NCBI RefSeq assembly: GCF_006094275.1
Contig: NZ_CP034412.1
Location: 1,922,001 to 1,986,000, forward strand
DNA length: 64,000 nucleotides
From: Glutamicibacter creatinolyticus
GTDB lineage: Bacteria > Actinomycetota > Actinomycetes > Actinomycetales > Micrococcaceae
Direction: 5' to 3'
Part shown: piece after piece, positions 19,154-21,611 of the stretch
How the letters are laid out: each line of letters opens with the position of its first letter
Numbering within the stretch: the stretch's first letter is position 1
Notes under the pieces: model-generated
Told to the model about the DNA's origin: nothing
What the model saw: the letters and a program-made list of their open reading frames with translations, nothing else
Databases searched by the model: none
Made by a program: the position numbers and the translations under genes

Positions 19154-20397
19154 TTCTTGGCCCCCTGCGTGGGATTCTTCTTGGCGTTGTTCTTCGCCGC
19201 TTCCTTCGCGGCGGCCTTGGCGGCCTTCTCGCGCTTGCGGCGTTCCTTCTTCGACAGGATCTTCACTGCGGCACCCGAGGAGTCGATGTCGGAGATCGCG
19301 TTGTCGTGGCCGACAACGTCACGGCGCGAGAGCACCCAGAACACCAGCAGGATTCCGGCGCCCAGCACGCTGACGACCAGGGTGCCGGCGTTGCCCAGGT
19401 GCATGACCAGGGCGGCCAGCGCGCCGACGACTGCCGCGGCCGGCAGGGTGAACAGCCAACCCAGCGCGATGCGCCCGGCGGTACCCCAACGCACCTCGGC
19501 GCCCTTGCGGCCCATGCCCGAACCAATCACCGAACCGGAGGCGACCTGGGTGGTCGACAGGGCGAAGCCCAGGTGCGAGGAGGCCAGGATCGCCGAGGCG
19601 GTGGACACTTCCGCGGAGAAGCCCTGCGCGGGCTTCACATCGGTCAGCCCCGAGCCCATGGTGCGGATGATGCGCCAACCGCCGGTGTAGGTGCCCAGCG
19701 CGATGGCCAGCGCACAGCTGGTGATGACCCACAGGTGCGGGCCGGTGCCGGCTTCCTGCATCCCGGCGGCAACCAGGGTCAGGGTGATGACGCCCATGGT
19801 CTTCTGCGCGTCGTTGGTGCCGTGGGCCAGTGCCACGAGCGAGGAGGAGAAGATCTGGCCGTAGCGGAAGCCGCCGCGCTTGGGCGAAGCGCCTGATTGA
19901 CGCTTGGTGATGGCGTAGGCCAGCTTCGTACACACGTACGCGGAGACACCGGCAATCACCGGGGCACACAGCGCCGGCAGCAGCACCTTGCTCATCAGCA
20001 CGCCGTAGTCGATGGCGCCCAGCCCGGCGCCGACGATGGCCGCACCGATCAGGCCGCCGAACAATGCGTGGGAGGAGCTGGAGGGAAGGCCCAACAGCCA
20101 GGTCAGCACGTTCCAGATCACTGCGCCCATCAGGCCGGCGTAGATCATTTCCGGCATGATTTGCACGCCGCCCTCGCCCTCCTTGATGATTCCGCCGGAG
20201 ATCGTCTTGGCAACCTCGGTGGAGAGGAACGCGCCTACCAAGTTGAGGGCTGCGGCGAGCAACACAGCTTTTTTCGCTGTGATGGCGCCGGTTGCGATTG
20301 GAGTGGCCATCGCATTGGCCGTGTCATGAAAACCGTTGGTGAAGTCGAAGAACAACGCCAAGGTAATGACCAGGACGACGATGAGCGTCAAATCCAT
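19150..20397 (-). CDS. pit: Inorganic phosphate transporter, PiT family
   Basis: A 415-residue PiT-family permease that takes up phosphate (as metal-phosphate) with the proton gradient. The first signature is DFTNGFHDTANAMATPI (about residues 18-34) and the second half repeats it as SLVALAHGTNDAQKTMGV, the inverted-duplication hallmark of the family. About ten helices are visible. The C-terminus is a long Lys/Ala-rich cytosolic tail (KKERRKREKAAKAAAKEA), unusual but seen in related genera. A TTGACT/TATGAT promoter and an 11-bp-phased PHO box lie upstream, so PhoP control is likely. A small membrane gene is coupled to its stop. Confidence 0.93.
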   Translation of the reverse strand: MDLTLIVVLVITLALFFDFTNGFHDTANAMATPIATGAITAKKAVLLAAALNLVGAFLSTEVAKTISGGIIKEGEGGVQIMPEMIYAGLMGAVIWNVLTWLLGLPSSSSHALFGGLIGAAIVGAGLGAIDYGVLMSKVLLPALCAPVIAGVSAYVCTKLAYAITKRQSGASPKRGGFRYGQIFSSSLVALAHGTNDAQKTMGVITLTLVAAGMQEAGTGPHLWVITSCALAIALGTYTGGWRIIRTMGSGLTDVKPAQGFSAEVSTASAILASSHLGFALSTTQVASGSVIGSGMGRKGAEVRWGTAGRIALGWLFTLPAAAVVGALAALVMHLGNAGTLVVSVLGAGILLVFWVLSRRDVVGHDNAISDIDSSGAAVKILSKKERRKREKAAKAAAKEAAKNNAKKNPTQGAKK

Positions 20398-20510
20398 TGA
20401 ATACCAGCCTGGGGGTCGAACGGCTAAGGGAAAGTTTTCTGCTCAGCACACCGCGATATCGATCCATCTGCACGGTGAACGACACGGCACAATGGCCGCG
20501 AGCCAGTTCA

Positions 20511-20538
20511 ATCATATGACTACCTGTCACTGAGTCAA
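20511..20538 (-). promoter_or_regulatory. pit promoter
   Basis: On the minus strand TTGACT (20538-20533) and TATGAT (20516-20511) are 16 bases apart, close to the vegetative consensus. The PHO box sits directly upstream of the -35. Confidence 0.65.
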
Positions 20539-20560
20539 TCTGGAAAGTCAACCCAGATCT

Positions 20561-20591
20561 GGCGAACAACGGGTGACACGCAGGTGAACCC
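20561..20591 (-). promoter_or_regulatory. PHO box upstream of pit
   Basis: Three direct heptamers read GTTCACC, TGTCACC and GTTCGCC on the minus strand, starting exactly 11 bases apart (20589, 20578 and 20567). The actinobacterial PhoP site is built from 11-bp direct-repeat units with GTTCACC cores. The array ends 22 bases before the -35 of pit, a position that suits activation. Binding is inferred. Confidence 0.65.
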
Positions 20592-20717: not shown

Positions 20718-20727
20718 CATCACCAGG

Positions 20728-20809
20728 TGCCCAAGGTGGGACTCGAACCCACACATCTTTCGATACCGCATTTTGAGTGCGGCGCGTCTACCGATTCCGC
20801 CACTTGGGC
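20728..20809 (-). tRNA. tRNA-Leu (CAA)
   Basis: An 82-base cloverleaf with acceptor arms GCCCAAG/CTTGGGC, discriminator A, the T-loop GTTCGAG, and an anticodon stem CCGCA/TGCGG enclosing CTCAAAA, so the anticodon is CAA (reads UUG). The long variable arm is typical of Leu. The genome does not encode the complete CCA end. It is a single tRNA, not part of a cluster. Confidence 0.95.
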
Positions 20810-20993: not shown

Positions 20994-21611
20994 TTGAGCC
21001 AGCTGCCCGACATCACCAAGATCCCCGCCGAAACGCCTGGCACCGCCCGCCGCGTACTCGTGGCCGAGGATGAGACCCTGATCCGCCTGGACATCGTCGA
21101 AATCCTGCGCCAAGAGGGGTACGAGGTAGTGGCCGAGGTCGACAATGGGGAAAGCGCCATTGAGAAGGCCCGCGAGCTGAAGCCGGACCTGGTCCTGATG
21201 GACGTGAAGATGCCGGTGCTTGACGGGATCAGCGCCGCGGAAACCATCGTCAAGGAACGCATCTGCCCGGTCGTGCTGCTGACCGCGTTCAGCCAGAAGG
21301 AACTGGTGGACCGGGCCCGGGAGGCCGGCGCCATGGCGTACGTGGTCAAGCCGTTCACGGAGGCCGACCTGACCCCGGCCATCGAAATCGCGATCTCCCG
21401 GCACGACGAGCTGCGCGCCCTGGAGGAGGAAGTCAGCAACCTCAGCGAGCAGTTCGAGACCCGCAAGCTGGTGGATCGGGCCAAGAGCCTGCTGATCACC
21501 AAGATGGGGCTGACCGAGCCCGAGGCGTTCCGCTGGATCCAGAAGACCTCCATGGACCGCCGGCTGAGCATGCGCCAGGTGGCCGAAACCGTGATCGATC
21601 AGGTCAAGTAG
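20994..21611 (+). CDS. ANTAR-domain response regulator (PdtaR-like)
   Basis: A 205-residue regulator. Residues about 19-135 are a receiver domain: VLVAEDETLIR has the acidic pocket, VLMDVKMP the phospho-acceptor Asp, then LLTAFS and the VVKPF Lys. The C-terminal ANTAR domain (KLVDRAKSLLITKMGLTEPEAFRWIQKTSMDRR) binds tandem RNA hexaloops to prevent termination. It matches mycobacterial PdtaR, partner of the PdtaS histidine kinase, in layout. The start is TTG 20994 with AAAGGAAA eight bases upstream; no better start is available. It is a lone gene here, with no kinase beside it. Confidence 0.92.
   Translation: MSQLPDITKIPAETPGTARRVLVAEDETLIRLDIVEILRQEGYEVVAEVDNGESAIEKARELKPDLVLMDVKMPVLDGISAAETIVKERICPVVLLTAFSQKELVDRAREAGAMAYVVKPFTEADLTPAIEIAISRHDELRALEEEVSNLSEQFETRKLVDRAKSLLITKMGLTEPEAFRWIQKTSMDRRLSMRQVAETVIDQVK

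Follow-up and report, generated by a model that had tools for sequence, protein, structure and literature searches.

The window analysed here is a 64,000-nucleotide stretch of the Glutamicibacter creatinolyticus genome. It carries on the minus strand a low-affinity phosphate transporter gene, pit, preceded by a predicted core promoter and, further upstream, by an array of three 7-nt repeats (Table 1). The starts of the three units are spaced by exactly 11 bp and the units follow each other head to tail, as had been pointed out in an earlier note on this DNA. The TTGACT/TATGAT promoter that the note placed after the units is also present, with a 16-bp spacer and hexamers identical to the consensus at 10 of 12 positions. 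The array is found 164-192 bp ahead of pit, and 22 bp separate its end from the -35 element. A further TTGACT (20551-20546) is separated from the -10 by 29 bp, a distance too great for it to pair with the TATGAT at 20516-20511. Transcription of pit would start near 20504, which would give the units approximate positions of -85, -74 and -63. When a PHO box is defined as at least two GTTCACC-like 7-nt units arranged head to tail with an 11-nt period, the array is such a box with three units. The isolated GTTCACC in the predicted leader is either an ancillary unit or a chance occurrence; it sits in sequence that congeners do not share.

Table 1. Features of the pit promoter region (positions in the window)
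Feature	Position	Strand	Basis and remarks
PHO direct-repeat unit 1, GTTCACC	20589-20583	-	7/7 versus GTTCACC; offset -73 from -10
PHO direct-repeat unit 2, TGTCACC	20578-20572	-	5/7 versus GTTCACC; offset -62 from -10
PHO direct-repeat unit 3, GTTCGCC	20567-20561	-	6/7 versus GTTCACC; offset -51 from -10
-35 element, TTGACT	20538-20533	-	Promoter search; TTGAC here in 18/18 genomes of the genus
-10 element, TATGAT	20516-20511	-	Promoter search; TA(T/A)GAT in 18/18 genomes of the genus
pit, low-affinity phosphate transporter, 415 aa	19150-20397 (ATG at 20397)	-	PHO4, PF01384, E 2.7e-86
Isolated extra GTTCACC, predicted 5' leader of pit	20474-20480	-	+36 from -10; off the 11-bp phase of the array by one base
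tRNA-Leu, upstream of the array	20726-20809	-	

Alignment with congeners is lost upstream of the array, in the segment 20600-20994. At the congener locus L004 a gene coding an ANTAR regulator ends ahead of pit and is read in the same direction. This genome has the tRNA-Leu gene instead and the ANTAR gene (20994-21611, plus strand) is divergent, an arrangement that suggests a rearrangement close to the box. The search for RNA families between 20300 and 21000 gave the tRNA alone above threshold. An RNA element was thus discarded as an explanation, the one weaker match being antisense to the tRNA. A 6-bp dyad (ATCTGG/CCAGAT, 20558-20538) was rejected because its left arm is not conserved in the congener alignment. 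Sites for GlnR, searched with up to one mismatch to the consensus, were found five times in the window, which is no more than chance.

Rarity and conservation of the array

The array scores 18/21 against a GTTCACC triplet while the next best triplet position of the window reaches 15/21. When up to three mismatches are tolerated, the triplet has a single match on the two strands of this genome (G000; 3.31 Mb), the pit site itself, and its backwards-read control has none. The same search in the 18 genomes of the genus yielded 8 matches distributed over 7 genomes (control: 0). Two of the 8 are assigned to a locus, one at pit of this genome and one 169 bp upstream of pit in G007. From base composition alone, a score of at least 18/21 is expected 0.056 times in a genome and 2.6e-6 times in any 300 bp of one strand. 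Over 19.9 million positions simulated with a first-order Markov model, no site reached 18, 2 reached at least 17 and 28 at least 16. These expectations are probably too low since pairs of units occur in excess over controls and shuffles: GTTCACC-N4-GTTCACC with up to three mismatches is found at 619 places in the genome versus 182 for the control, and the first pair of the array, GTTCACC-N4-TGTCACC, 17 times in the window at the same tolerance versus 6.7 in shuffles (with zero mismatches, at the pit site only). What counts most is therefore the triplet itself, together with its location and with the register found in relatives.

Across the 18 aligned genomes the core promoter is very well conserved. 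The register of the repeats was assessed in 17 congeners anchored on the -10 and scored against GTTMACC at all offsets (background mean 1.99, SD 0.72). The best offsets are -62 (5.59/7) followed by -51 (4.41/7), where this genome has units 2 and 3. The offset of unit 1, -73, has a mean of 3.24 and reaches at least 5/7 in 4 of the 17 genomes. The -62 unit attains at least 5/7 in 14/17 congeners; the core unit is weak or absent (<5/7) in three (L084, L088 and L089), and 9/17 have two neighbouring units that each score at least 5. The complete triplet is not conserved across the 17 congeners. The phasing that the earlier note looked for in related genomes is thus retained as the register of units 2 and 3 but not as a three-unit array: the register is conserved, and the number and quality of units vary. 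G004, which branches earliest in the Pit tree of the genus together with G000, lacks the register (L084) and has another array further upstream, GTTTACC/GTTTGTC/GTTCACC in 11-bp phase (L084 1251-1279, ~250 bp upstream of pit), possibly a relocated box.

The PHO motif at other phosphate genes of the genome

The pit gene of the window lies at 1.94 Mb and is not adjacent to pst. The pstS gene is found at 115 kb, followed by genes for two permeases and an ATPase (ABC transporter), with a second, distant pit at 121 kb. GTTAACC-N4-GTTCACC precedes the pstS linked to the second pit in 18/18 genomes of the genus, among them the one analysed here. Its unit, spacing and orientation match those of the pit array. 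However, the pstS box has two near-perfect units positioned nearer to the -10 (assigned by eye), whereas the pit array is made of three weaker ones. Among seven further pstS-like copies retrieved in the genus search, one (L158) has GTACACC-N4-GTTCACC and the other six have no pair above 11/14. This genome has a second pstS-like gene (L152; G000:C1:1547210-1548169) that matches TIGR00975 better than the pit-linked copy; no PHO pair was found in the 520 bp upstream of its profile match (best 9/14).

The intergenic region between phoU and phoR of this genome contains GTTCACCAAACGTTCACC (L189:2457, minus strand), a GTTCACC-N4-GTTCACC pair. PhoU from this locus scores over the TIGR02135 cut-off. 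The closest solved structure to the response regulator encoded beside phoU is RegX3 (2oqr, E 8.1e-108). This regulator and the neighbouring histidine kinase matched the PhoB and PhoR models of NCBIfam, yet below their cut-offs, and the same holds for all 25 models listed for each of the two proteins. Their designation as putative PhoP and PhoR is based on similarity and neighbourhood.

The gene ahead of the second pit has a weak PhoU_div match (21.3 bits versus a cut-off of 24.4) and resembles the pap gene of Streptomyces. The best neighbouring pair upstream of it scores 11/14. In the same region (L151, upstream of 14364, minus strand) GTTAACC, GTTCAAC and GTCCTCC are found at positions 0, 22 and 33 of an 11-bp phase; the scores at 0, 11, 22 and 33 are 7, 1, 6 and 5 of 7, position 11 being empty. 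A weak PHO box ahead of this PhoU_div-like gene is possible, whereas no PHO box is reported at the pst-linked (pitH1-type) pit of Streptomyces.

Orientation and side of pit boxes in other genera

The named pit loci are the best 80 of 572 relatives, with titles mostly from Micrococcaceae and Microbacteriaceae and including one locus of the genus of the window (L004). They were scanned for phased pairs scoring at least 12/14 within 220 bp upstream of pit. The forward-only scan of these best 80 of 572 detected such pairs at 3 loci (0.13 expected). When both orientations were considered they were found at 32/80 (0.32 expected), and 30 of the 32 scoring loci, nearly all from other genera, carry them reversed. 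The reverse orientation was added after the forward-only scan, so this result was found by looking and not predicted, and many of the named loci are close relatives that do not count as independent events. As a control, pstS of other genera has pairs of at least 12/14 at 26/30 loci, all 26 forward. Each of the remaining four is a second pstS of a genome in which the first copy does score, and the contig-end pstS locus L239 has a forward pair of 13/14.

The position of the box relative to the promoter was surveyed in 103 regions (the 80 named loci, that is the best 80 of 572 and L004 among them, plus 23 of the family; L213-L216 were left out). The 101 distinct regions comprise 12 with a recognised TTGAC-N-TA promoter. 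In all 12 of these, sister genus included, the highest-scoring pair has reversed orientation and follows the -10; 8 of the 12 pairs score at least 11, a value reached by about 3% of shuffled regions. The sister genus is g23 (Paeniglutamicibacter, as judged from its locus L003): in the Pit tree, which includes 12/15 of its loci, the 18 congeners form one clade (100/99) that groups with it (99/90). From its 16 regions L255 and L003 were dropped as duplicates and L253 as a contig-end locus. The 13 left, once anchored, have reversed units at +20 (6.62/7) and +42 (5.46/7) with a weak position (3.0) in between, and they lack a forward peak at the offsets where the genus of the window has its units. 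One of the genomes (L259) is weak throughout. The two genera share a similar core promoter (TTGACT-N-TATGAT) and an orthologous Pit (83-86% identity), but the repeats of Paeniglutamicibacter are reversed and downstream of the -10 whereas the array described here is forward and upstream of the -35. Two more genera have a similar promoter followed by reversed units, namely g11 (read by eye) and, weakly (9 and 10 of 14), g18. TATGCT, a candidate alternative -10, adjoins the reversed boxes of Arthrobacter loci.

Other layouts exist. Leucobacter and Cryobacterium loci (L016, L022, L032, L064) have reversed PHO-like repeats upstream of a TTGACC, which by eye appears to be a third layout. In the class-wide set, where 92/148 genomes had a match, 21 of the 28 new pit loci (best matches only) score at least 12/14 (0.11 expected), 12 forward and 9 reversed. 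Among these best-match loci, the box of g55 is forward in 9/10 genomes. The g55 genomes (7.1-9.9 Mb, two or three pits) probably belong to Streptomyces. Their pair lies 72-75 bp before pit, unlike the array of the window, which is more distant from the gene and ahead of a conserved TTGAC -35. The Leucobacter/Cryobacterium and class-wide loci indicate that there is no strict link between the orientation of a box and its side of the promoter, and that reversed boxes predominate only among the named loci (best 80 of 572).

Probable control of pit and possible history of its operator

Regulation of Pit genes through a PHO box is already known, and pit of this genome adds one member to the group. 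In Streptomyces coelicolor four core 11-nt units of pitH2 are bound by PhoP and the promoter is inactive in a phoP mutant (PMC7866108). The view of the earlier note that such control is unexpected for a Pit transporter is out of date given the PhoP dependence of pitH2 (PMC7866108) and the binding of PhoR at pitA of Corynebacterium glutamicum (PMC3353115). The literature search found no report, among the matches listed, of a PHO box at pit in Glutamicibacter. The locus described here is similar to pitH2 in having a Pit-family gene with upstream GTTCACC-type 11-nt repeats and a RegX3/PhoP-type regulator, and in the genomic layout, with this pit apart from pst and another pit linked to pst. It differs by the number of units, three instead of the four core units of pitH2.

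The three repeats are very probably a PhoP operator, because motif, spacing, position and regulator fit and the same repeat is found at pstS and at phoU/phoR; the PHO-box reading of the earlier note is supported to that extent. Among the points against it, the middle unit is poor (5/7) and the array is further upstream of its promoter than the pstS box (whose -10 was assigned by eye); the incomplete conservation of the triplet, the sub-cut-off scores of regulator and kinase and the abundance of pairs count in the same direction. In phosphate starvation the PhoR-like kinase would phosphorylate the RegX3/PhoP-type regulator encoded beside phoU, PhoP~P would bind the three repeats head to tail and, positioned just upstream of an intact sigma-70-type promoter, would raise transcription of pit. 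We infer binding, phosphate dependence and the sign of control, the latter from position and orientation: the array is upstream of the -35 and shares its orientation with the boxes of pstS and of the g55 pit genes. That the repeats are a PhoP operator and that PhoP~P also activates pit under starvation is, taken jointly, a reasonably probable reading.

The identity of the gene does not give the sign of control. C. glutamicum pitA is called constitutive and not PhoR-regulated in one report (PMC7866108). Another describes binding of PhoR~P to the pitA promoter and a drop in pitA expression when phosphate is limiting, with PhoR as a possible repressor of the gene (PMC3353115). As at pitA, a low-affinity phosphate transporter gene has a site for the phosphate response regulator here (a predicted one), but activation is favoured at the locus of the window. 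An unlikely alternative is a genuine PhoP operator from which PhoP, in starvation, lowers pit transcription or leaves it without measurable change. Repression would agree with the pitA case and with the repressor-like place, downstream of the -10, that the box can have in related genera, and absence of effect with the verified PHO boxes of genes that show no evident regulation by phosphate (PMC4415409). The array stands, however, upstream of an intact -35, and in the orientation of the 26 scoring pstS loci and of the pit boxes in nine of the ten g55 genomes (among the best-match loci), all of which argues against repression. The OmpR-type regulator MtrA of C. glutamicum activates from upstream of the -35 and represses near the -10 (PMC3353115).

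There is little probability that another regulator (e.g., GlnR, MtrA or a PolR-like protein) reads the repeats and that pit is not primarily controlled by phosphate. A precedent is PolR of Microlunatus phosphovorus, a non-PhoP protein that binds GTTCACn5GTTCaC at pit and pstS and that binds less at pstS and at one pit when oxygen is lacking (PMC6754071). The presence of the same motif at pstS and phoU/phoR of this genome speaks against it, and no GlnR-like site with at most one mismatch to the consensus was found near the pit promoter. Least probable of all is a chance resemblance ahead of a constitutive pit promoter, since the abundance of three-mismatch pairs (commoner in the window than in shuffles) and the three congeners with a weak or missing core unit are outweighed by the composition-only expectation for the triplet, the fixed register in congeners and the phased pairs before pit at 32 of the 80 named loci (best 80 of 572).

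The comparison between genera has a further implication. It may be read most simply as a move and flip of the operator on the branch leading to Glutamicibacter. That the operator passed there from reversed and downstream to forward and upstream of the -35, with reversal of the sign of control, is a tentative proposal that we consider doubtful at present. The ancestral reversed box downstream of the promoter would have stood in a repressor-like place, the one it has in the sister genus and certain other genera. The proposal would not hold if boxes reversed in sister genera were activating as well, e.g. through a second promoter, and the repressor reading of the Arthrobacter loci is weaker if TATGCT acts as their -10. 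If it is correct, pit would have gone from being shut off to being switched on in starvation, convergently with Streptomyces pitH2.

Regulation of Pit varies between species (PMC4415409). The comparison suggests that this variability has a simple physical basis, with one regulator and one motif that can lie before or after the pit promoter and point either way. With opposite box placements at a similar core promoter, the two sister genera would allow a direct comparison of the rule that sets the sign of control.
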